From NCBI GenBank assembly GCA_004210455.1, contig SEFA01000023.1, forward strand, positions 1-64,000: a stretch of DNA of 64,000 nt, given 5' to 3'. Position 1 is the stretch's first letter, and the number at the start of each line of letters is the position of its first letter. This document shows, in pieces, positions 15,348 to 46,651 of the stretch. The position numbers and the translations under genes are program-made. This DNA comes from Rubrivivax sp. (GTDB lineage: Bacteria > Pseudomonadota > Gammaproteobacteria > Burkholderiales > Burkholderiaceae_C). The notes beneath the pieces were generated by a model that saw only the letters and a list, made by a program, of their open reading frames with translations, made no database searches and had not been told where the DNA came from.

Positions 15348-15541
15348 GATAAGTTGCTCTGACTGCTGCACTGGCGCGTATCAAAACCGCGCGATCCAGC
15401 CGGCGATTCGGGGTGGCGATCAGGGAGTGATCCATAGGCGGCGAGTGGCGAGCTTGAGAACCATGTCTCGTGGCGCGCAATGCGGAATGCGGCAGACCAC
15501 GAAGGATTGACCGTCGAGCAGATGGAAGGATGAGCTCTCCC

Positions 15542-16393
15542 ATGAGCAAGGCAGCAAAACATGGCCGCACCGCAGTGAGAGTGCGCGTCCCCGCGCGCTC
15601 GGCGGGTGACGTGGGCGAGGCGGACGGCGCGGGCGCGGCATCACCGGCAGTTGCTGCGTTGACTAAGGCCCCTGCGACCACGCTGGCGGCGACGCTGCGG
15701 GCGCGGTTGCTGGAGCGCCTGCGCGACGCCAAGGTTCCCGAGGGGCATGCACAGGCCGTGCACCTGGCGGGCATCACCGGGCGCGCGTACCAGACTACGC
15801 GCCGGTGGATCGATGAGGAGTCCGCGGGCCTGCCGGACCTGGCGTCGTTCCGCTTGCTGTGCGAGGGCGTGGATGGCGATCCGATGTGGCTGCTGGGCCT
15901 GACGCAGGAGAAGCGGTCGCTGCGGGAAGCGATTGGCGCGCCGGTGGACTCTTACGAATCCTCTCCTGCAGCGCCGTCTCACGCTGGGACGCGAAGCGCG
16001 AGAGCGCACGACGGCGATGCTTGGGTGGAGGGTGTTTCCAGCAGTGTGGGGCGGGAGATGTACGGCTGCCGGGCCCGGCGCATGCGAGGCGACGAGATGG
16101 AGCCCGAAATTGCCGACGGGGACACGATCTTCATCGACGTCAACGTCGGTGAATTCGAGGGCCACGGAACCTACCTGATCGCGTGCGACGGGCGGGAACT
16201 TGTCCGGCGCCTCGAATACACGGTTGGCCGGGGGCTGGTCGTGAGTTGCGCCAACCCGCGCTATGAACCTGCGGTGTTTCGCGATGCCGCCGAGATCCTG
16301 GAGCACGGGTTGCAGGTCCTGGGGCGCATCGAAGGGGTCGTTCAGGTGCGCAAGTTCTGGCGGCTGGCTCCTGGCAGCAATAAGGCGCCGTAG
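15542..16393 (+). CDS. LexA/CI-like repressor with degenerate S24 domain
   Basis: A 283-residue regulator. Residues 40-130 hold a helix-turn-helix-like region (LRARLLERLRDAKV, VHLAGITGRAYQTTRRWIDE). The C-terminal half is an S24 fold: MRGDEMEPEIADGDTIFIDV, GTYLIACDGRELVRRLEY, VVSCANPRYEP. In active LexA/CI proteins the first motif carries the nucleophile (GDSM) and the second the lysine (VKRL); here they read GDEM and VRRL, so both catalytic positions are replaced. Self-cleavage is therefore unlikely, although the fold should be kept. It diverges from the flhDC-traI operon and is probably its repressor. ATG 15542 has AAGGA upstream; ATG 15530 is also possible. Confidence 0.8.
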   Translation: MSKAAKHGRTAVRVRVPARSAGDVGEADGAGAASPAVAALTKAPATTLAATLRARLLERLRDAKVPEGHAQAVHLAGITGRAYQTTRRWIDEESAGLPDLASFRLLCEGVDGDPMWLLGLTQEKRSLREAIGAPVDSYESSPAAPSHAGTRSARAHDGDAWVEGVSSSVGREMYGCRARRMRGDEMEPEIADGDTIFIDVNVGEFEGHGTYLIACDGRELVRRLEYTVGRGLVVSCANPRYEPAVFRDAAEILEHGLQVLGRIEGVVQVRKFWRLAPGSNKAP

Positions 16394-17012
16394 ATTGCCG
16401 ACCTTGGGTTCGCGACGGCGTGCCCAGATCTGCGGCTCATGATCGGGTCGAGGAAGTGTTCCGCGCTGGAGTTGCTCGGAGACTGCCGCAGGAAGGGGAC
16501 TGGGTGTCGGCTTCGCAGCGATCTCGGTCGATCGGCGTCGAACGTCGTGCGACCGGTCCTCAGCGCATTACGATCACTAAGACGCGAGCCGCTTCAAGAT
16601 TCGAGCGACCGGTCCGCGGACTGAGACTGGCATTCGGTGCACTCCCGATAGCCGAGTAGACCTCGGCATCAACGGGTGCCGCAATGCTCGCTCAGGGAGG
16701 CAAAGCGGGAAGCCGTAGCCCGACGGCTGTTTACGTGTCGATGCCATCGTCTCCGGCCGCTGAGATGCCGCAGACTCTCCACGAGAACCGGCGCAGGGGG
16801 GGCTGCGACCTGTTGGACTCAACGGCATCTGGAGCGAGGCGCGCGCCCAAGGGCGTGCGCGCTAGACGACGAAGTGCGCAGAAGGAAAGCCAAGAATCTT
16901 CCGGGCGACGCTTCCGTTAGCCAAAATAGCGACAAAGAAGAATTGGCTGAGAGCCCCTGGCTCTCAAGTTGAAAAAAGCTGCCGCTAAGTGCCGACAGCA
17001 GGGAGGTCCACC
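16394..17012. other. Intergenic, about 620 bases
   Basis: Between the repressor and the HNH gene. Small open frames exist on both strands but none has a ribosome site plus recognisable protein. The last 100 bases before 17013 are more AT-rich and probably hold the promoter of the three-gene operon downstream. I see no attachment site or insertion sequence. Confidence 0.35.
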
Positions 17013-17777
17013 ATGACGAACGCCAGACGCGCCTACAACGACGCAGAAGTCGCAGCTTTACTCGCGCAGGTCCGAAGCCGGTGCCCGCTCGATGACAGGC
17101 CACTTTTCTATCGAAAGCAACAACGGCAGTTTAAGGCGTATGAGCTAGCGCACATCTATCCACTGAACCCGCGGCCGGATGAACTCATCGAGTTGGCGAA
17201 CTCCCCGCGCCTGTCTGCTGACGTCAACGATCCGGACAACATCATCCCGCTTTGCGGCGAATGCCACGGGAAGTTCGACAAGCCAAGAACAGCAGCCGAA
17301 TACCTTGAGCTGTACCAGATCAAGCGCGAAGCGCTGGAGCAAGATCGGCAACGATCGCTGGCGGCGCGGTACCCCCTTGAGCAGCAGATTACGGCCGTCG
17401 TTGCGCACCTGCACAGTGTCGTGGTTGAGGAGGCCGGCAACACCCAGCTAGCGTTTACACCGAAGGCAGTCAATGCCAAGTTGGACGCGACCATGCCGCC
17501 CACTACCAAGCGGAAGGTCCGCAACGCTGTTGAGGACTACTTCCGGCACGTCCAGGCAGCGTTCTTGGAGCTTGAGCGCATTGACCCTGGATGTACCGAG
17601 CAGATCTTCATCCAGGTGAAGTCGTTTTACGTGATGCAGAAGCGTGAGCAGCTGACGCAGGCAAAGGTGTTCTCCAACCTGGTCGCGTGGATCCAAGACC
17701 GAGCTAAGGCCGAAACACTTGAATCTGCGGAGGCCGTGGCCTCGTTCTTCATCCAGAACTGTGAGGTGTTCGAATGA
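17013..17777 (+). CDS. HNH-endonuclease-like component of an ABC three-component system
   Basis: A 254-residue protein. The N-terminal 95 residues look like an HNH/HNHc nuclease: YELAHIYPLNP, then DPDNIIPLCGECHGKFDK, giving the paired His, the Asn/Asp and the CxxCH finger of HNH-type folds. The remaining helical half (LEQQITAVVAHLHSVVVEEA, RKVRNAVEDYFRHVQAAFLE) has no recognised domain and probably contacts the partner proteins. ATG 17013 follows GGGAGG. Its stop overlaps the next ATG by four bases, and the third gene is an SMC-like ATPase, so I read it as the effector of an ABC-3C type conflict operon. Nuclease activity is inferred from the motif only. Confidence 0.7.
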   Translation: MTNARRAYNDAEVAALLAQVRSRCPLDDRPLFYRKQQRQFKAYELAHIYPLNPRPDELIELANSPRLSADVNDPDNIIPLCGECHGKFDKPRTAAEYLELYQIKREALEQDRQRSLAARYPLEQQITAVVAHLHSVVVEEAGNTQLAFTPKAVNAKLDATMPPTTKRKVRNAVEDYFRHVQAAFLELERIDPGCTEQIFIQVKSFYVMQKREQLTQAKVFSNLVAWIQDRAKAETLESAEAVASFFIQNCEVFE

Positions 17778-17998
17778 TCACGCCCAACAAAGTTGTTCCG
17801 CTGTCCGCCTCAGTGCTGGGGCACCTGACACATGTGCTGAAAGCAGGCCCAGATCCGGCCCGCCTGGTGGACCTCTTCCATCAGGTCGGCGAAAAGTTTG
17901 AAAGCATCGATCAGTTCTTGCTGGCCCTAGACGTCCTCTTCGTGCTTGACCGTCTGACCGTCGACTTCGGCAGCGAGGAGGTTATCTATGCTTCGTGA
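17774..17998 (+). CDS. ABC three-component system middle component (small)
   Basis: A 74-residue protein overlapping the HNH gene by four bases (ATGA) and the ATPase gene by eleven. It reads as a small winged-helix-like protein: VLGHLTHVLKAGPDPARLVD, ESIDQFLLALDVLFVLDRLT, then VDFGSEEVIYAS, with a final beta hairpin. This size, tight overlap and position between an effector and a DUF2326 ATPase match the middle components described for ABC-3C systems by Aravind and co-workers. No catalytic residues are apparent. Confidence 0.65.
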   Translation: MITPNKVVPLSASVLGHLTHVLKAGPDPARLVDLFHQVGEKFESIDQFLLALDVLFVLDRLTVDFGSEEVIYAS

Positions 17999-19631
17999 GA
18001 TCCGCTGCGAGAAATTCCGCACCCGTGTCGTCAGTTTTCACGCGGGCCTGAATGTTGTGCTGGGCGACGAGAACGCCACCAATTCGATCGGCAAGTCCAC
18101 GCTGCTGATGCTGGTGGACTTTGCTTTCGGAGGCTCGACGCTGTTGGATTTCAACACTGACATCGTGGCGGAGCTGGGGCACCACCACTATGACTTCGCG
18201 TTCGAATTCGACAGTGTCTGGCATCGCTTCAAGCGCGAGACAATGACGCCGGAAGTCGTGTACGTCTGCGACGCGGAGTACAAGGTTCTTGAAGCAATCG
18301 GCCTGAACCAATTCAACGCGTTCCTGCAGAGCGCATACGGCATCGAGCAACCAGGCCAGACGTTCCGCGCCGCCGTCGGCCTCCATCTGCGCGTGTGGGG
18401 CAAATCCAATCTGATCCCGGACGAGCCGCTGCATACGTTCCCAAAACAGGCGGACAAGGATTGCATCGACAACCTGGTCAAGACCTTCGGGAAGTTCGAG
18501 GCGATTCGCTCGCGAGATGACGAGGCGCGCAAGGCCGACACGGAGCTAAAAGTTATCCGGGCGGCAGCAAGCCGGCAGCTCATTCCGAAGGTGACCAAGA
18601 CGGGCTACGCGCAGGCGAAAGTAGAGATTGCGGACCTGGAGCGCGACCTTGAGGACGTGCGTCAGAACTTGGCTAGTTATGCGACGAACCTGAGCGCTGT
18701 GATCAATAAGGATGTTCTGGAGCTGAAGGAGCGCAAGGATGACTTGCTCCAGCGCCGCATGACCGTGGCCGGGAGGCTCCAGCGGGTCGAGCGCAACATT
18801 GGCGGCAAGCGCGCCCTCCATGGTGGCAATTTTCAGGACCTCCAAAGGTTTTTTCCAGAGATCAACGTTGACCGCCTGGCCGAAGTCGAGGCGTTCCATG
18901 ACGGCGTTGCACGGATTCTCAAAGAGCAGCTGAAGGAGTCCAAGGATCAGTTGGGCGCGGAACTCAAGGTGATCGATCTAAGCATCTCGGGCATCGATGC
19001 AGCGATGGCGGCGGCACTGGGATCGATCGAGCAGCCGGAGGCATTGGTCGACCACGTTTACAAGGTTGCGTTGTCGCTCCAGACCGCACGAGCCAGCAGA
19101 GATGGCTACGAGCTCGAACAGGCAAGCGTCGATACGCTGCGCAAGGCGAAGGAAGCACTCGCCGAGGTGAAGCAGCGCGTCCTCGCGGAGATCGAGACCA
19201 GCGTGAACGACGGGATGCGCGAGATCGTCAGTGAGGCCGTTGGTAAGCATCGCAAGAGTCCCCGGCTGTCGCTCAGTGACACGCGCTACACCTTCGAGGT
19301 TTTCGAGGACACGGGCACGGGCACGGCGTACTTCGGTCTCGTGCTGTTCGACATGGCCGTCTTCAGTGCGACGTCGCTTCCAGCGATTGCGCACGATTCG
19401 TTGCTCTTCAAGAACATCTCAAACGACTCGGTCGGCCAACTCATCGGGCTGTACGCGAAGATCCAGAAGCAGTCGTTCATTGCGCTGGACGAAAGCAAAA
19501 AATACGGACCGTCGGCTGCTCGGACATTGAAAGAGCAGAGCGTCATACAGCTGGCCGACGACGCTGTGCTGTACATCAAGGACTGGCGGCCGAATCGCCC
19601 TTCTTCGCCCAAGGCTGACCAAGCCTCGTAG
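17988..19631 (+). CDS. DUF2326 SMC/RecN-like ATPase
   Basis: A 547-residue ABC-type ATPase. The N terminus has a Walker A-like NVVLGDENATNSIGKSTLLM with the DUF2326-typical NSIGKST core, then LVDFAFGGSTLL. Residues 180-430 are long amphipathic helices, likely a coiled-coil arm (EIADLERDLEDVRQNLASYA, ELKERKDDLLQRRMTVAGRL). The C-terminal lobe includes FGLVLFDMAVF and the terminal half of the head (LPAIAHDSLLFKNIS). Proteins of this kind sense DNA structures and gate an effector. The start overlaps the preceding gene by eleven bases. It ends the three-gene operon; the stretch after it is empty. Confidence 0.8.
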   Translation: MLREIRCEKFRTRVVSFHAGLNVVLGDENATNSIGKSTLLMLVDFAFGGSTLLDFNTDIVAELGHHHYDFAFEFDSVWHRFKRETMTPEVVYVCDAEYKVLEAIGLNQFNAFLQSAYGIEQPGQTFRAAVGLHLRVWGKSNLIPDEPLHTFPKQADKDCIDNLVKTFGKFEAIRSRDDEARKADTELKVIRAAASRQLIPKVTKTGYAQAKVEIADLERDLEDVRQNLASYATNLSAVINKDVLELKERKDDLLQRRMTVAGRLQRVERNIGGKRALHGGNFQDLQRFFPEINVDRLAEVEAFHDGVARILKEQLKESKDQLGAELKVIDLSISGIDAAMAAALGSIEQPEALVDHVYKVALSLQTARASRDGYELEQASVDTLRKAKEALAEVKQRVLAEIETSVNDGMREIVSEAVGKHRKSPRLSLSDTRYTFEVFEDTGTGTAYFGLVLFDMAVFSATSLPAIAHDSLLFKNISNDSVGQLIGLYAKIQKQSFIALDESKKYGPSAARTLKEQSVIQLADDAVLYIKDWRPNRPSSPKADQAS

Positions 19632-36096: not shown

Positions 36097-36450
36097 ATGC
36101 TCCCTAGGTGAGATGCGGAGCTTATGAAAGCGATTTCATATCTGGGTGGAAGGAATTCTTCTATCGATTCTCGGGCTTGCCCCCTGGGATCCCAGCCCCA
36201 TGCGACTGCCTATAGCCTCGGGGGCTCGGAATGCGCTCATCGCTCACGCTGCGCTGGCGAATATGCGTCGTCGGTGGCTGGGCAAAAGCGCCCCTCCAGG
36301 CGGGTGAGGCCCCAGGAAACCGACCTTCGTATGCCTCAACATCCATATGGCGAGGGCCGCCGTCGAAATGCCGCTTGCGAGAGCGGGAATTCGGGAAGCG
36401 GCAATCGTGTCGTCCGTGGACTATTCCGCTATTGCTCGCGGGAGGATCAC
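36097..36450. other. Intergenic, 354 bases, divergent leader
   Basis: Between the exported-protein gene (minus) and the recombinase-like gene (plus). Contains the perfect 12-base dyad CTGGGATCCCAG at 36184-36195, a possible operator. The recombinase frame is open upstream to 36124 but has no ribosome site there. Confidence 0.4.
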
Positions 36451-37359
36451 ATGGTCGGTCATGGCAGTCACGCGTTGTCCGCCGAGCTGCTGCGAGAGGT
36501 GCTTGCGGGCGGTACGTATGAGTCTGCGGCTCAAGGGCGTGGCCTTAGCCGCACCGCGGTCGAGCGCCGCGTCAAATCGCTTGTCCTGTGTCTCATTCGC
36601 GAAGGCGCGATGACGGGACTCAACGAGAGTCAGGCACTGTTCGTCAGAAAGCTTCGGGAGCACCGCGTGCGGATCGAGGCCGCGTTGGATGGGTACACCC
36701 CTGTAGCTCTGGCCGAAGGTGAAGTTGCGTCGCCGGTGCTCTCCGATCTGGACGTTCAGGCCGCCGTGCGCCGGGTACGGCTCCGCACCCGTTCGCCCGA
36801 GCGGGACACCGCGATGTTTCTGATCCTGTTGGCCACGGGTCTGCGACCGCTAGAAGTTGCGAGGCTCGAGATCCGCGACTATCTGTGCGCGGACGGGGAG
36901 GTCAGGACGTACTCGCAGGTGCGGGAGGGTGTTGCGACCAATCGGTCAGCACGCCCGTTGTTCTTCACCAGTTCCGCAGCCCGTGAGGCAATCGACACCT
37001 ACCTTGAGCAACGGGCGACTGCGGTGGGGCGCGACGTCACGGCGCCTTACCGCGGACTGGTCGCCAGCGATGCGCTCTTCTTGACTGAGGCGCAAAGGCC
37101 GTTCCACATTCAGGCTGTCGCGACCGCCAGTGGCACGCGGTGCTTGTGCCAGGAAATCCACTACGCCTACAGGAAGATCTTCAGGCGTATTGGGTGTCCG
37201 GGGCTGACTGCGCTGAGCGTGCGGGACACGTTCATGGACCGGCTGAGCCGACGCGGCGCCGACGCGGGGCAGATCGGCGAGCTGCTGGGCATCCGGGAGC
37301 TGCGCTCGATCAAGCGTCCGAAAGTTCGGCTGGAGGAGTTGGTGAACGAATTGGTTTGA
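36451..37359 (+). CDS. Degenerate tyrosine-recombinase-like protein
   Basis: A 302-residue protein starting at ATG 36451, with GGGAGGA upstream. The N-terminal 60 residues include a helix-turn-helix-like AQGRGLSRTAVERRVKSLV. The rest follows the tyrosine-recombinase catalytic fold: LLATGLRPLEVARLEIRDYL contains the first Arg, and LTALSVRDTFMDRLSRRGAD aligns with the HxxR box, keeping Arg but with Leu for His. Downstream GELLGIRELRSIKRPKVRL lacks the His/Trp and I see no nucleophile Tyr. It is probably not an active integrase; it may bind DNA as a regulator. Confidence 0.65.
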   Translation: MVGHGSHALSAELLREVLAGGTYESAAQGRGLSRTAVERRVKSLVLCLIREGAMTGLNESQALFVRKLREHRVRIEAALDGYTPVALAEGEVASPVLSDLDVQAAVRRVRLRTRSPERDTAMFLILLATGLRPLEVARLEIRDYLCADGEVRTYSQVREGVATNRSARPLFFTSSAAREAIDTYLEQRATAVGRDVTAPYRGLVASDALFLTEAQRPFHIQAVATASGTRCLCQEIHYAYRKIFRRIGCPGLTALSVRDTFMDRLSRRGADAGQIGELLGIRELRSIKRPKVRLEELVNELV

Positions 37360-39359: not shown

Positions 39360-40568
39360 ATGAACTCTCAACAGTTTGAGGTGGCGGGGCGAAGGGTCGG
39401 CAGTGACGATGCGGTCCTGCAGCAACTGCTGGCCCGTGCGTACGAGTCCCCGGATCGGCCGCGTTGCCTGTGCTGCGAGGGCGGAGTGGAGATGTATGTC
39501 GCCCGGCATCGCCAGTTCGTCCTCAAGCGCATGCCGGGCTCGGGCGCGCGACATCATCCGGATTGCCCGTCGTATGAGCCTGACGAGCAGCTCTCCGGGC
39601 TGGGCGAGTTGGTGGGCGACGCCGTGCTGGAGCCCCAGCCCGGCTGCTACGACCTACGGGTCAATTTCCCGTGGACGCGCGTGGCGGGGAAGGGCGTGCC
39701 GCGAGGCGAGGCGGAGGAGCCCGCGGAAGTGGCGGTCGCGCGACGTCGCATGAGCTTGCGGGCCTTGATGCACTTCCTCTTCCATACGGCAGGCTTTGAT
39801 CGGTGGTCGCCGGCGATGGAGGGCAAGCGCAACCAGGCAGTGCTGCACAAGTACCTGATGGAAGCCGCGGAGGGCATCACCGTGCGCGGCATCGGCCTGG
39901 CCGAGCGGCTGTATGTGCCTGAAGCGTTTTCGGAAGCGGGGCGTGAGGAGGCCGCGCGGCGGCGCCGCGCGAAGCTGGCCGTCCTGCATCCTCGCGACGG
40001 ACAGACGCCGCTGGCCCTGGTGATCGGCGAGTTCAAGGGGTGCGATGCGTCGGCGGTGGGCCGGCGGATCTGGATCAAACACGCACCGGACGCGCCCTTG
40101 CTGGTTGCTTCGCGCACGTGGGAGCGCATCGAGCGAGGTTTTGGGGCGCTACTCGAGGCGCGGCATGCGGATACTGGTCAGCGCGTTCGGGTGATTATGG
40201 CGGCGCTCATTCGGGCGCGGCGGGAGCACACATACGAGGTGGATACCGCGAGCCTGATGCTGGCAAGCGAGCATTGGATCCCGCTGGAGGGCATCCATGA
40301 ACTCGCGCTGGTGCGTGCTCTGGTCGAGCAGCGTCGTCGGTTTGTCAAGCCATTGCGCTACGACTCCCGCTCGGTGGCCGCGTTCGCGAACGCGTTGCTG
40401 CTCGACGCCGGGCCGCGTCCTGTGCCGCTCCATGTCCTCAGTCCATTTCTGGCGGGGAAAGAGCGGGAGGGGAAGGAGAGGGGGCTGCGAGAGGAAACAC
40501 AGGCCTGGCGCTGGAGCTACGGCGACGAGATGCCTGCGTTTCCATTCCTTGTCCAAGGCAGCCGGTGA
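39360..40568 (+). CDS. DUF1173 protein
   Basis: A 402-residue protein matching DUF1173, a family found on ICEs and plasmids. The N terminus has RCLCCEGGVEMYVARHRQFV with a cysteine pair and ARHHPDCPSYEP, together a plausible zinc site (C-C-H-C). Middle segments include SLRALMHFLFHTAGFDRWSP and KRNQAVLHKYLMEAAEGIT; the C-terminal half has LVIGEFKGCDASAVGRRIWI. ATG 39360 has AGGAGG six bases upstream. Function unknown; often near other mobile-element genes, as here. Confidence 0.82.
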   Translation: MNSQQFEVAGRRVGSDDAVLQQLLARAYESPDRPRCLCCEGGVEMYVARHRQFVLKRMPGSGARHHPDCPSYEPDEQLSGLGELVGDAVLEPQPGCYDLRVNFPWTRVAGKGVPRGEAEEPAEVAVARRRMSLRALMHFLFHTAGFDRWSPAMEGKRNQAVLHKYLMEAAEGITVRGIGLAERLYVPEAFSEAGREEAARRRRAKLAVLHPRDGQTPLALVIGEFKGCDASAVGRRIWIKHAPDAPLLVASRTWERIERGFGALLEARHADTGQRVRVIMAALIRARREHTYEVDTASLMLASEHWIPLEGIHELALVRALVEQRRRFVKPLRYDSRSVAAFANALLLDAGPRPVPLHVLSPFLAGKEREGKERGLREETQAWRWSYGDEMPAFPFLVQGSR

Positions 40569-41949: not shown

Positions 41950-42281
41950 GGAGCTGCGTCAGGTGCCGTGCGCTCACATCGGACATCGAAACGCGCGCCT
42001 GCAGGGACGAGCTTGGGTGGCTCAGGAGAAGGTGGGCATGGAACATCGGGATCGATGACTCCAGCAGCAGGGCCCGCATCAGCCGAAACGAGTCAGGCGT
42101 GCATGAGCCGCCGGTGCAGACTGCACAAGCAATCGCGCGCGCGTTAAAAGTGCCGCTCGCGTACTTGTACTGTAAGTATGACTCCATGGCCAATCTGCTG
42201 GCTGCTTTGAACGAGCTTCCGGAGCCGCAGAGAGCAGTAGTCGCCGAGAAATTCTCCCGAATGCTTGGCGAGCGCGATTAA
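41950..42281 (+). pseudogene. Second XRE-family regulator, with several frameshifts
   Basis: The 3' part reads ARISRNESGVHEPPVQTAQA, IARALKVPLAYLYCKYDSMA and a helical tail ending SRMLGERD, a clear XRE protein. Upstream, in the same frame, RDELGW and IGIDDSSS are present, but between them the frame is wrong for eight codons; AQEKVGME, the expected sequence, is in the neighbouring frame. So one base was lost after RDELGW and one gained before IGIDD. The N terminus has no start codon in frame. It is a decayed paralogue of the preceding gene, and its stop overlaps the end of the opposite-strand TOPRIM-like gene by four bases. Confidence 0.6.
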
Positions 42282-43444
42282 TAGCTGTGGGATTGATCGG
42301 CCGGAAGTGGACCGTCGGAGCTGGCGTCATAAACGCTCATTCGAGGTAGCGCAAATCCCCATTCAAATACTCTTCTTCCGATTTCGAACCAATGCGTTGC
42401 ATTCGGATCAGATGCCACCGCTTGACAAGATCTGTGTACAGAACGTCGTCCTAGCAGCTTGACAACGGCCTCAAGTAGTTTGTCTCCGAAGCCTTGCACA
42501 ACAAAACATTGACAGGCGCTGGGAGTGCTAATGGTGGCGCATTGGCTGGAGGAGAGACAGGCCGACGTAAAAACGCCCTTCGTTGCCAAATCATTTGCCA
42601 CCTTCGTCCAGAAAATTTTCTGTGGAGTATTGGCATCATAAGAAAAAATTTTCCTCAATGAAACGCCAAACTTTAAATCTCCATGATGATGCGCATGAGG
42701 GAGTTGGCTAAATATTTCGTTTCGGTGGCGCTCCCAAGCTAGGCTATGTGTGGGCGGTACGGCCTCCTCAAAAAAGATCAGCGGAATGATGTTTTCCACT
42801 TCTCTAGATGGAATGTCCCAATAACTGCAGACCGCGCCGGAAATCGCTGCGAATCCTTCGCACTTTTTTGCAGTTGAATCTTTCTCTTGGCCTGGATGAA
42901 GGCGATCACTGTCGCTGATGCATAGCACCCAGTTTCTTTCAACGACGACGGCGTTCATTAGGCAATCTGGAGTGGTCGAACCCCCTCCGCCTAGTTTCGT
43001 TAAGGCAATCTGACACCCGATTCGATTGCTAGTGGCGTACTGTCGAGCGGCGTGTTCGAATAAATTCGCGTCGTCTAAATTTTCGGTGACTAGTACCGCT
43101 TTCGCCAAGCCGTTGATGCCGATAAATAGTAGCGGGACGTCCCATTCGTGGTCGGATAGTCTTACAGGTTCTTTGCGTTCGTCATATGAAATGACAACGT
43201 GAATGCTCAAGCTTCGAGACAGGGGCGCAAACGTGGAGAAATTGGAAACGATGTGAGAAAGAACGCGACGGGCAGCCAATGATAGCGACTGACTTTTCTG
43301 CAAATGGGTTAGCGTTTTTCGGTCACCAAACACGAAATGTTCGCCGCGACGAACTGCATTTAAAATGCACTCCAGTCCTGAGCATGCCGTCATGTCGGAC
43401 GACAAGTCGACGTTTTGCAATGAAGAATCAAGCCGAATGTGCAT
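42278..43444 (-). CDS. TOPRIM-like partner of AAA15 ATPase (AriB-like candidate)
   Basis: A 388-residue protein, base composition visibly more AT-rich than most of the window. Residues 115-222 look like a TOPRIM nuclease/DUF4435-type core: KAVLVTENLDDANLFEHAAR supplies the Glu (E121), LTKLGGGGSTTPD the Gly turn, WVLCISDSDRLHPG the DxD (178-180), and YWDIPSREVENIIPLIFFEE the REVEN segment. The rest has no recognised domain; a His cluster (LPHAHHHGDLK) lies near residue 250. ATG 43444 lies four bases after the ATPase stop, so the two form an operon. ATPase first and TOPRIM second is the PARIS AriA-AriB order, but identity is not certain. Confidence 0.55.
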   Translation of the reverse strand: MHIRLDSSLQNVDLSSDMTACSGLECILNAVRRGEHFVFGDRKTLTHLQKSQSLSLAARRVLSHIVSNFSTFAPLSRSLSIHVVISYDERKEPVRLSDHEWDVPLLFIGINGLAKAVLVTENLDDANLFEHAARQYATSNRIGCQIALTKLGGGGSTTPDCLMNAVVVERNWVLCISDSDRLHPGQEKDSTAKKCEGFAAISGAVCSYWDIPSREVENIIPLIFFEEAVPPTHSLAWERHRNEIFSQLPHAHHHGDLKFGVSLRKIFSYDANTPQKIFWTKVANDLATKGVFTSACLSSSQCATISTPSACQCFVVQGFGDKLLEAVVKLLGRRSVHRSCQAVASDPNATHWFEIGRRVFEWGFALPRMSVYDASSDGPLPADQSHSY

Positions 43445-43448
43445 GATG

Positions 43449-45044
43449 CTAAGCGTAAACCGATGGCGTGAAAAATCCCATGGGCCAATTTGTTAGTATT
43501 CCATCGTCATCAAACTCGGAAATTCTTAACTTCGACGGGGATGTGGAGTCGGCTTGCTCGAAAACAATAACTTGAACATCTTCGGATGATAGTCTTCCAT
43601 CCGCAATCAATGCGCCCAGTCTATTAATTAGATCTGCGCTGTGCGTCTCGGCAATAATGCTCAACCTAGAGGCGTTAGCAGGCAGGCCGTCATCCTCCCT
43701 TTTTAGGTCTAAGGCTGCAGCGAAAACATCCCCTAGCTTCGCTTGATAGTCTGGATGTAAGTGAAGTTCAGGCTGTTCTATGACTAGCGTTGGACAGGTT
43801 GTGTCCGTGTTCCAAGGAGTGCTCTTGCTCTTGCGCTTGCTAGCAGCCCAGAGCTGCACCGCGATTGGAAGCATCTGGGAGAAGCCGAAACCCATATCGG
43901 CGATATTGGTTTCGCCTCCACCAGTCTGTTCGATTTTCAATGAAACATGGCCGCCCTGCTTACTCGGTTTGACCTTGAAGCCGAAATGTTCTTCGAGCCA
44001 CGCATTTAGGTTATGAAGCTCGGGCCAACTTAAATTGTCTAAAAACATGGCGATGTTTTCGCCTTTTGAATCAATTTCTCCAACGGCCAGCGCTTGTTGA
44101 CGATAGTAGCGTTGTGCATTTGCGCGCAACGGTTCAAGATATATTACCTCTTCAGCAAATCTGGATAGACACAGATTTGCCTGCTCAAGAATCGGTGCCA
44201 AGTGAGCCGCGAATGAGACGTCGCAGAGTCGCTGAAAATAGTATCCGTCGAATCCTTGGGCGAGCAAATTGTCCCGGAAGGAAGGTGGGCGCGTTACGTG
44301 CGACAAGGTTTGAAAAATATCTTCGCGATAACCTATGGGGATTCGGTCGGCTAGCTGTCTTACCTTTTCCTCTGCCGTATTTCCATGAAGAAAATTTCTA
44401 AGCAGTCTGCTCTGCTCAGGTCTGAATACGTTATGCATCTCCCAATACTTAAAGTCGTCTTTTTCGCCGGGTACAGCCTTGTAGCACTGAGGAACGGGAA
44501 TTAGGGTACTCTGCTCTGCAAAGAATGCAATTGAGGAATCGCGTTGCCAAACGTAGTTTCCTGACGTTATGCTTTTGGCAAAGCCAAACTCATCAATTTC
44601 TACCTTTGCATTGTTTCCGAAAGCATCGAGTTCGATCTTGGAAACATAGGTGCTGTTCTTTCCGTCTCGCATCGTTGCTCGGATGACAACTGTTCCGGAG
44701 GAGACGAGGCGTACCATTGAGAGTCTTCCATCATGTCTGCGACTCATGCTACGAAACTCTTCCGGACTCGCTTCAAACTCAAAATTTACGGTAATTGTCT
44801 TGTCCGTCACCTGGCGGCTAACGGCAACGTCAAAGCTGCCAAAATCCACTAGTCTGCCCCACCATAGTAAAGGTCCCTTTTTTACTGCTTCCGCACTCTG
44901 TTTAAGTAGCGGAAACAACCGGGCAAACGTGCTCTTCCCGGAGCTATTACGACCCACAAGAATAGTTATTGGCTTAAGTTTTATGAGGCCGGTATTTTCG
45001 AGGCTACGCAGATTCTCTGCCCCGATAGAAGTTACTCTCAGCAT
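43449..45044 (-). CDS. AAA15/DUF3696-like ATPase (OLD/AriA-like)
   Basis: A 531-residue ABC-type ATPase. KPITILVGRNSSGKSTFARL is Walker A (about residues 27-42); DMGFGFSQMLPIAVQLWAAS is the signature helix; CPTLVIEQPELHLHPDYQAK is Walker B; LSIIAETHSADLINRLGALI the switch histidine. The insert between them has a beta-rich part followed by helices, as in AAA15 and OLD-family ATPases rather than coiled-coil SMC proteins. It lacks a C-terminal TOPRIM of its own; the next gene seems to provide it. AT-rich base use points to transfer. Defence ATPases of PARIS, OLD and retron systems share this architecture. Confidence 0.8.
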   Translation of the reverse strand: MLRVTSIGAENLRSLENTGLIKLKPITILVGRNSSGKSTFARLFPLLKQSAEAVKKGPLLWWGRLVDFGSFDVAVSRQVTDKTITVNFEFEASPEEFRSMSRRHDGRLSMVRLVSSGTVVIRATMRDGKNSTYVSKIELDAFGNNAKVEIDEFGFAKSITSGNYVWQRDSSIAFFAEQSTLIPVPQCYKAVPGEKDDFKYWEMHNVFRPEQSRLLRNFLHGNTAEEKVRQLADRIPIGYREDIFQTLSHVTRPPSFRDNLLAQGFDGYYFQRLCDVSFAAHLAPILEQANLCLSRFAEEVIYLEPLRANAQRYYRQQALAVGEIDSKGENIAMFLDNLSWPELHNLNAWLEEHFGFKVKPSKQGGHVSLKIEQTGGGETNIADMGFGFSQMLPIAVQLWAASKRKSKSTPWNTDTTCPTLVIEQPELHLHPDYQAKLGDVFAAALDLKREDDGLPANASRLSIIAETHSADLINRLGALIADGRLSSEDVQVIVFEQADSTSPSKLRISEFDDDGILTNWPMGFFTPSVYA

Positions 45045-45591: not shown

Positions 45592-46074
45592 TCAATACAT
45601 GCTGGTCCGTGTCGCACGGCGGCGGGCATTTGCTGCTTTGAAGGCTTCACTGTCCGATGCGACGCGGGCCTCAGTGCGAAAGCTGCTCTTACACACCATA
45701 CAAGTGAATGCGCCCTTGTTGTCGTGATGTAGACGAGCAAGTCGCTTATCGTTGTCGTGACACGGCTGGCAATAGGGCTCCTCAATGCTTGCATCGCCGT
45801 CCCTGGGTAGCCAATAGCAGGGTTGTTTCCAAACTAACGCTGCACGTTGCTTGGCCGCGCTTTCGAGGGAACGGATCTGTTCCTTTGCTGCGAGAAGCTC
45901 TTGCTGGACTCCAGCTGCTTCCAGTCTGACATCGGCCAAGGTGGAAATTAGGTCAGCCAGCTTTAGTTTGACTTCGGCCTGCTCAAGAGTGGAGCCGCTG
46001 TCTTTGATTGCCTTCGCTAACTCGGAAGCTGTCTTGACGCCGCCGATGAGAGCTGTGATTGCCGCAATGTCCAT
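45592..46074 (-). CDS. Coiled-coil zinc-ribbon protein (phage/island type)
   Basis: A 160-residue protein: helical N-terminal half (ALIGGVKTASELAKAIKDSG, KLKLADLISTLADVRLEAAG, ELLAAKEQIRSLESAAKQRA) then a zinc ribbon with PYCQPCHDNDKRLARLHHDN and FTCMVCKSSFRTE (two CxxC pairs). I have seen this layout in phage and island hypothetical proteins but know no function. ATG 46074 begins the conserved MDIAAITALIGG; it has no strong ribosome site, and a TTG at 46092 is possible. It is followed by a terminator and preceded by a 74-residue gene on the same strand. Confidence 0.7.
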   Translation of the reverse strand: MDIAAITALIGGVKTASELAKAIKDSGSTLEQAEVKLKLADLISTLADVRLEAAGVQQELLAAKEQIRSLESAAKQRAALVWKQPCYWLPRDGDASIEEPYCQPCHDNDKRLARLHHDNKGAFTCMVCKSSFRTEARVASDSEAFKAANARRRATRTSMY

Positions 46075-46143
46075 GTGCGCATTGAAGCACAAGCGCCCTC
46101 GCCGCAGGCCTCTTGATCCAAGTTCGAACGAGGGGCTGTACGT

Positions 46144-46587: not shown

Positions 46588-46594
46588 TCAATTT

Positions 46595-46651
46595 TGGCTC
46601 CTCGACCTGGGCTCGAACCAGGGACCTACGGATTATCAGTCCGCCGCTCGC
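46595..46651 (-). pseudogene. 3' fragment of a tRNA gene (attachment-site remnant)
   Basis: On the minus strand the anticodon stem-loop CGGACTGATAATCCG (anticodon position reads GAT), variable loop, T arm CCTGG-TTCGAGC-CCAGG and acceptor strand TCGAGGAGCCA with encoded CCA are intact. Upstream only GAGCG of the D stem matches and the 5' acceptor half is missing, so this is not a functional tRNA. The discriminator G and acceptor strand look more like a tRNA-Asn although the anticodon is Ile-type; identity is unresolved. Such 3' fragments are left by integration of mobile elements into tRNA genes. Confidence 0.8.

Follow-up and report, generated by a model that had tools for sequence, protein, structure and literature searches.

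Defence systems that combine an OLD-type ATP-binding cassette (ABC) ATPase with a TOPRIM nuclease are known in several arrangements. In OLD of classes 1 and 2, in GajA of Gabija and in the OLD protein of retron-Eco8 the two parts share one chain (with a helicase in Gabija, or with retron parts), while in PARIS (AriA-AriB, class 4 OLD) the ATPase and TOPRIM genes are adjacent. Published accounts describe WonAB, PD-T4-4 and other OLD-ABC dyads as two genes for an ABC ATPase and a nuclease effector, and, according to a 2026 paper (PMC12839542), Aravind and colleagues had already gathered OLD-ABC modules linked to TOPRIM, while other partners of OLD-ABCs include HNH, PD-(D/E)xK and PIN nucleases. 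The subject of this analysis is a gene pair (gene A and gene B) in a 64,000-nucleotide stretch of DNA from Rubrivivax sp. (assembly GCA_004210455.1, contig SEFA01000023.1, positions 1 to 64,000; hereafter the window), which on sequence grounds is an unnamed variant of the described OLD-ABC/TOPRIM dyads. As such dyads are already in print, the kind of system is known and novelty is limited to the clade. No name for this clade, which is characterized by a long ATPase, was found in the literature searched; a 2020 survey of ABC ATPases may already list the operon, and for this reason no claim to priority is made. The pair and its predicted functional sites are as follows.

43449..45044, minus strand: gene A, a 531-amino-acid (aa) OLD-type ABC ATPase with an AAA_15/AAA_21 core and a C-terminal DUF3696, recognized from its open reading frame (ORF), Pfam and an AlphaFold2 model; predicted sensor/regulator.
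44931..44954, minus strand: Walker A of gene A, GRNSSGKS, residues 31-38, from an alignment of 50 ATPases.
44160..44798, minus strand: variable insert of gene A, residues 83-295, candidate trigger-sensing region.
43752..43778, minus strand: Walker B of gene A with its flanking residues, EQPELHLHP (residues 423-431), the same in all 50 aligned ATPases.
42278..43444, minus strand: gene B, a 388-aa protein with an N-terminal domain (1-111), a TOPRIM core (112 to ~268) and a variable C-terminal part that often has several Cys, recognized from its ORF and an AlphaFold2 model; predicted nuclease effector.
42671..43084, minus strand: predicted catalytic residues of gene B, E121, D125, D178, D180, E217 and K258, from conservation in 96 relatives.

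The initial annotation, made from the letters of the window alone, had proposed an ATPase-TOPRIM pair that was either PARIS-like or a new defence system. Its ORF coordinates and lengths, the 4-nucleotide spacing from gene A to gene B, the motifs it quoted and its numbering of E121, D178 and D180 are all correct, and the pair is AT-rich as it had said (48% GC vs ~67% in most of the window). We consider it probable that the two genes encode an OLD-ABC-type system with two components that serves in defence (or in superinfection exclusion). This reading draws on the gene pairing, the TOPRIM model, the conservation of the active site and the carriage by phages and plasmids, including at the P2 old/tin hotspot, all of which were computed here.

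The pairing was first visible on plasmids, where tblastn with gene A hit 44 records, 4 of them with a query coverage of 80% or more. In each of four plasmid neighbourhoods (three matches with 99% coverage and 29.8-33.6% identity, one with 66% coverage and 38.2% identity) a hypothetical protein of 327-400 aa follows the ATPase; gene B itself found no match on plasmids by tblastn. An alignment of six ATPases, scanned against genome contigs (one genome per species, 84,980 species) and IMG/VR, yielded 552 candidate stretches, 401 of them with ATPase relatives; the best 80 were taken as genome-contig loci, alongside 45 loci on viral contigs, where single-sequence peptide-pattern scans had given no confirmed match. 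Together with the window, loci L002-L131 hold 128 ATPase ORFs of at least 300 aa, and the 119 at E < 1e-90 were counted as family ATPases. A member of the partner family lies directly downstream in 113 of these 119 by an ORF rule, although in two (L020, L041) only as a fragment of 71 or 92 aa. A direct frame search recovered the partner in five of the six misses, bringing the total to 118 of 119 with the same two fragments; the remaining locus, L089, equals L088 in its ATPase score and was outside the direct frame search. With starts picked by our own rule, the intergenic gap is -4 to +13 nucleotides in 104 of 111 loci. Some loci are duplicates, the 111 partner sequences being reduced to 100 at the k-mer threshold. 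The pairing is not circular, because genome and viral loci were chosen by ATPase similarity alone, and the families of gene A and gene B form a near-obligate pair. A tree of 54 family ATPases, which span nine named phyla as well as viral contigs and plasmids, does not, by inspection, track host taxonomy. The pair is uncommon in both its order and its phylum: a single-protein query found it in 2 of 399 genomes of the order, and a profile search of 398 genomes from the phylum gave 3 near-full-length matches, with its own genome included in both counts.

Gene B carries neither DUF4435 nor any other Pfam family above cut-off. A resemblance to DSRM_MRPL44 was rejected, as it falls below threshold (E 5.6e-4, 20.4 bits where 27 are required) and shows up in 1 of the 96 relatives. 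Its AlphaFold model, built from 96 aligned partners (alignment A4, which leaves out L002-L006, near-copies, partners of <250 aa and L064 with its over-long start), reaches a mean predicted local distance difference test score (pLDDT) of 93.4 and a predicted template modelling score (pTM) of 0.90. When Foldseek's candidates were re-aligned with VIA-align, the top match was the C-terminal region of Bp OLD (6nk8; Z 10.5, 171 residues, root-mean-square deviation 3.7), followed by three 6nj OLD entries (Z 8.8-9.1), PARIS chains of AriB length (8ux9_A, fifth with Z 8.1 and taken as AriB from its chain length; 8v46_D, Z 7.3) and GajA (Z 7.0 and lower).

The active site is the stronger argument for a TOPRIM domain, as Foldseek alone gives weak matches. 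E121, D178, D180, E217 and G155 are each found in 96 of 96 partners, K258 in 94, D125 in 90 (Glu in the other 6) and E215, two residues ahead of E217, in 81. According to the description in PMC6755086, Bp OLD binds metal A through E400, D455 and D457 and metal B through E404, T506 and E508, with K562 directed at the scissile phosphate; single TOPRIM mutants of Bp OLD are described as tolerated, and those of gene B may be likewise. On that description the residues E121, D125, D178, D180, E217 and K258 of gene B are the counterparts of E400, E404, D455, D457, E508 and K562, with D125 four residues past E121 as E404 is past E400. The first aligned pairs in VIA-align (residue 112 with Bp OLD 391, residue 114 with AriB 19) place E121 on Bp OLD E400 and on AriB E26, provided there is no gap between. 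Gene B is therefore predicted to be a TOPRIM nuclease; the initial annotation had named the absence of this fold as an outcome that would count against it, and both the AlphaFold model and the active-site pattern favour its presence. The idea, raised by eye because related ATPases have PIN-like partners, that the N-terminal domain is a PIN remnant received a probability of <1% in a profile comparison and is not claimed. In the C-terminal part, 30 of the 96 partners have Cys at all three A4 columns C296, C313 and C364 (window protein numbering). These residues, which are not universal and of which the window protein lacks the one at the 364 column, possibly form a metal site in the partners.

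Gene A exceeds the Pfam cut-offs of AAA_15 (79.2 bits), AAA_21 (67.2) and DUF3696 (27.5), in agreement with its first description as an AAA15/DUF3696-like ATPase. Its model (pLDDT 90.8, pTM 0.91) matches the heads of SMC, Rad50, retron-Eco8 OLD and GajA in VIA-align (Z ~14.7-16.8); AriA is not among the 50 rows listed, which excludes nothing. In 50 ATPases hand-picked from loci having a partner (alignment A5), G31, G36, K37 and S38 of Walker A are invariant in all rows, and with a Walker A/B core conserved to this degree the ATPase machine should be active. Mean pairwise identity in the same alignment is 14% in the insert (residues 83-295) vs 49% in residues 1-82 and 38% in residues 296-531. 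It is because of this fast change that the insert is proposed as the part that would sense the trigger. The ATPase of an Exiguobacterium plasmid (L006:4675-7683) is 1002 aa long and has an N-terminal extension of ~440 residues ahead of the family region.

Besides the plasmids of the tblastn neighbourhoods, phages carry the pair. In 9 of the 45 viral-contig loci (L096, L097, L101, L103, L104, L106, L113, L115 and L120) it lies between homologues of the two genes that flank it in L096, read as P2-like gpA and gpQ; the phage genes of L101 are in reversed order, and L103 and L104 have identical scores. PHROGs labelled 5 of 41 viral-locus neighbours as 'nicking at origin of replication' and 6 as 'portal protein' (41 of 43 neighbours were scanned, two of L122 being omitted), and the gpA and gpQ labels of single loci follow from similarity to L096. 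The gpA-gpQ interval of P2-like phages is described as a defence hotspot that houses old and tin in P2 (Rousset et al., PMC9122126), and the nine loci would appear to occupy this hotspot. No near match to L106 was found in E. coli genomes. The filamentous Pseudomonas phage 62-2 has a long pair beside its repressor, with a gene B that the depositor labelled 'putative OLD family nuclease' and that matches the partner profile at 1.7e-78. A short-type pair, resembling PDC-M55, lies in the same gpA-gpQ interval in L122, a P2-like prophage in which a further ORF of ~519 aa (L122:7974-9530) separates it from the gpQ homologue.

Complex formation, trigger, abortive outcome and substrate we infer. Gene A would form an OLD/Rad50-like ABC machine that holds the gene B protein and would sense an infection cue, probably via its fast-changing insert. 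Upon triggering, it would release or activate the TOPRIM protein, which could then cut nucleic acid with two metals, metal A bound by E121, D178 and D180 and metal B by D125 and E217, with K258 at the scissile phosphate. Such cutting would stop growth or phage replication. We lean only slightly towards DNA as the substrate (as in OLD and Gabija) rather than tRNA (as in AriB), because OLD ranks above AriB structurally and a lysine like that of Bp OLD is present, neither of which offers real discrimination.

Several observations weigh against a TOPRIM-based defence system. Foldseek alone found nothing for gene B at E <= 0.001 in the PDB (best GajA, 4.3e-3) and nothing significant in a viral library (best 8.3e-2), and a search of solved structures with its sequence and a 96-row profile returned no TOPRIM relative. 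The VIA-align scores (10.5, then 9.1-7) are only modestly above the 7-8 that the tool gives when a model has no clear match, and lumazine synthases, which are unrelated, turn up from Z 6.5, interspersed with GajA rows. A scan of the minus strand between 42000 and 45700 detected no sigma-70-like site. An OLD-family enzyme of archaea (Saccharolobus) is described with a function in the cell cycle rather than, it would seem, in defence. Finally, in 113 of 124 genome-locus neighbours (66 loci) that were of <= 800 aa and were scanned with PADLOC at E <= 1e-8, at most 4 match any one family and there was no control set; clustering in defence islands is therefore weak and not used as support.

Among other explanations, the one that fares best, although we regard it as unlikely, is that the pair is simply a member of the PADLOC candidate PDC-M55 and not a separate branch. 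PDC-M55, a name not met in the literature searched (where 'DUF3696' occurred only in one unrelated paper), likewise has a DUF3696-type OLD ATPase and a TOPRIM partner. PDC-M55A matches gene A at 1.3e-38, and PDC-M55B, the sole PADLOC model to match gene B (4.8e-4), matches 70 of 96 partners at E <= 0.01. The match to gene B, however, spans only 98-246 of the 315 profile positions, and the best of the 96 (2.7e-39) belongs to L122, itself short-type. Scanning the phylum with profile A4 brought up nine weaker places in eight genomes, all short pairs, with ATPases of 379-438 aa (four complete ones) and partners of 293-371 aa (423 in one over-long start); these match PDC-M55B far better, at 3.6e-25 to 4.7e-45, and in 7 of the 9 the match spans 80% of the profile or more. 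A good fit to PDC-M55B thus goes with a shorter ATPase and a far more complete profile match than in the pair studied here. In 369 genomes of the class, PDC-M55B at E <= 0.001 weakly matched three open frames, 548-648 aa long, and the genome of the window was not reported. Two of these frames, which are TOPRIM-like (L133 and L134, 577 and 548 aa), also match the partner profile at ~1e-9 to 1e-10. The long-ATPase family is one branch in two quick trees (Shimodaira-Hasegawa-like approximate likelihood ratio test, SH-aLRT, 96 and 100); its 54 ATPases group without 5 short-type ATPases (SH-aLRT 100, by a quick method and with long branches), whose own grouping has a support of only 30. As the long family stands apart from the short-type pairs that match PDC-M55B most completely, PDC-M55 is best read as a related short-type pair. 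The initial suggestion of something new would then hold for the clade, while it does not hold for the kind of system.

A divergent PARIS system, in which Ocr-like anti-restriction proteins trigger the pair and gene B cleaves tRNA as AriB does, seems to us quite improbable. The PARIS-like order of the ATPase-TOPRIM pair, on which the initial annotation had relied, is borne out: the genes are split and adjacent in the same order, two AriA profiles match all 50 scanned ATPases, and an AriB-length chain is fifth among the structural matches of gene B. In addition, the residue on which E121 falls by alignment offset, E26 of AriB, is reported to be inactive as an alanine mutant (PMC12409363). As given in the published detection rule, PARIS comprises an ATPase with AAA_15 at >= 32 bits or AAA_21 at >= 27 bits and an adjacent gene with DUF4435 at >= 27 bits. 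Gene A is above both ATPase thresholds, but DUF4435, which had been suspected in gene B, was not found there at E <= 1 by the Pfam profile search, nor is it among the 25 of 31 Pfam families shown for the 96 relatives at E <= 0.1. Since the rule demands this domain, gene A/gene B are not PARIS by that rule, and as a claim of membership that part of the first proposal falls. Moreover, an AriB profile recognizes only 2 of the 96 partners and misses the gene B of the window, NsnB, PDC-M55A and HEC-03B score above AriA on gene A, and OLD is above AriB in the fold ranking of gene B. Gene B also has ~110 residues ahead of its TOPRIM core, while the AriB alignment begins at residue 19. Gene A, the one of the two ATPases that was scanned for DUF3696, passes its cut-off.

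It is more doubtful still that the pair is a toxin-antitoxin or plasmid/prophage maintenance module, with gene B a toxic nuclease, gene A its neutralizer and no sensing of phages. An operon of two genes carried by plasmids and prophages would be expected of such a module, but the location in the P2 exclusion hotspot suits defence better, and in PARIS the loss of either gene by deletion is described as non-toxic. A role in DNA repair or chromosome maintenance, akin to Rad50/SMC, is very hard to credit, even with SMC and Rad50 heads among the top structural matches of gene A and the cell-cycle role of the Saccharolobus enzyme, as patchy occurrence (the 2 genomes of the order and 3 near-full-length matches of the phylum) and mobile carriage ill suit a housekeeping gene.

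For a defence pair of the OLD-ABC kind, the remaining comparisons are with systems that share parts of its layout. Like OLD of classes 1 and 2, GajA and retron-Eco8 OLD, gene A/gene B combine an ABC ATPase with a TOPRIM, with the catalytic set described for Bp OLD, but they do so in two genes. Pfam scans of 7 neighbouring ORFs found neither a helicase nor a reverse transcriptase; with the ATPase and TOPRIM separate and no UvrD-like helicase among those ORFs, the locus does not correspond to Gabija. Menshen (NsnABC) comes close through NsnB, the best PADLOC match of gene A (9e-47). The Menshen operon is described as including a DUF262 gene, and no DUF262 was detected at E <= 1 in the 7 neighbouring ORFs. 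The 15 ATPases with strong NsnB matches group apart from gene A in a clade of their own, and the gene B family was not found beside any of them within the fetched stretches. WonAB, PD-T4-4 and the other OLD-ABC dyads share the two-gene plan, although the effectors of WonB and PD-T4-4 are described as PD-(D/E)xK nucleases and gene B is a predicted TOPRIM.

Related ATPases with other partners were also encountered. Downstream of DUF3696-type ATPases of 429-589 aa (L151-L159, L161, L162 and L170) come small PIN-like proteins bearing a DTN motif, recognized as PIN by eye and not by profile. These PIN-paired ATPases form their own clade in the tree, in which the long family is apart from both the NsnB and the PIN-paired clades. 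In a P2-like provirus (L169, P2-EC5 ORF555/ORF333) a related ATPase is accompanied by a partner that has no TOPRIM-profile match and, by eye, a restriction-fold-like stretch. Perhaps these are parts of a split OLD class beside PARIS, in which each clade of a mobile DUF3696-type ABC sensor chassis keeps to a single effector (long TOPRIM, short TOPRIM, PIN or restriction fold). The long TOPRIM branch would then serve P2-like and filamentous phages in superinfection exclusion, its hypervariable insert reading a trigger particular to the branch. We offer this as a tentative scheme, plausible but somewhat short of probable. The OLD-ABC/TOPRIM defence modules in any case gain an unnamed, widespread branch with an explicit active-site prediction, and the natural phage hosts of the pair let exclusion be tested. 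Since related ATPase clades join a common core to different partner families, one may study how a single sensor chassis comes to drive various effectors, and also whether TOPRIM effectors beyond PARIS cut tRNA too.

The surroundings of the pair include two further genes on one side.

36124-37359, plus strand: tyrosine-integrase family gene (match 2e-8).
39360-40568, plus strand: DUF1173 protein (match 3.5e-94).

On the opposite side from these two genes, the 3' part of tRNA-Asn is copied at ~46591-46649, 1.5 kb from the start of gene A. The 'tRNA junction' of the initial annotation survives in this copy, though not as a gene, as ARAGORN detected no intact tRNA anywhere in the window. Its 'decayed regulators' correspond to two short pieces near the pair whose resemblance to HTH_3 is sub-threshold (E 0.044 and 0.013). 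An integrase gene on one side and the 3' tRNA-Asn copy on the other suggest that the pair lies within an integrated element; as the window holds no second tRNA-Asn copy to bound the element, its other end is not fixed. On another contig of the same genome (G000, C161; L166 and L167), the DNA after intact tRNA-Asn genes resembles, by eye, the start of the window ORF at 45592-46092, so that tRNA-Asn sites may serve related elements at two places in this genome. Elsewhere in the window, an ORF for an S24 peptidase lies at 15470-16393. A second AT-richer patch at 16989-19631 (plus strand) contains an HNH_2 + CTD11 protein of the ABC-three-component (ABC-3C) kind (PF20277, 2e-24), followed by a DUF2326 protein (2.3e-17), and is likely an ABC-3C defence system.

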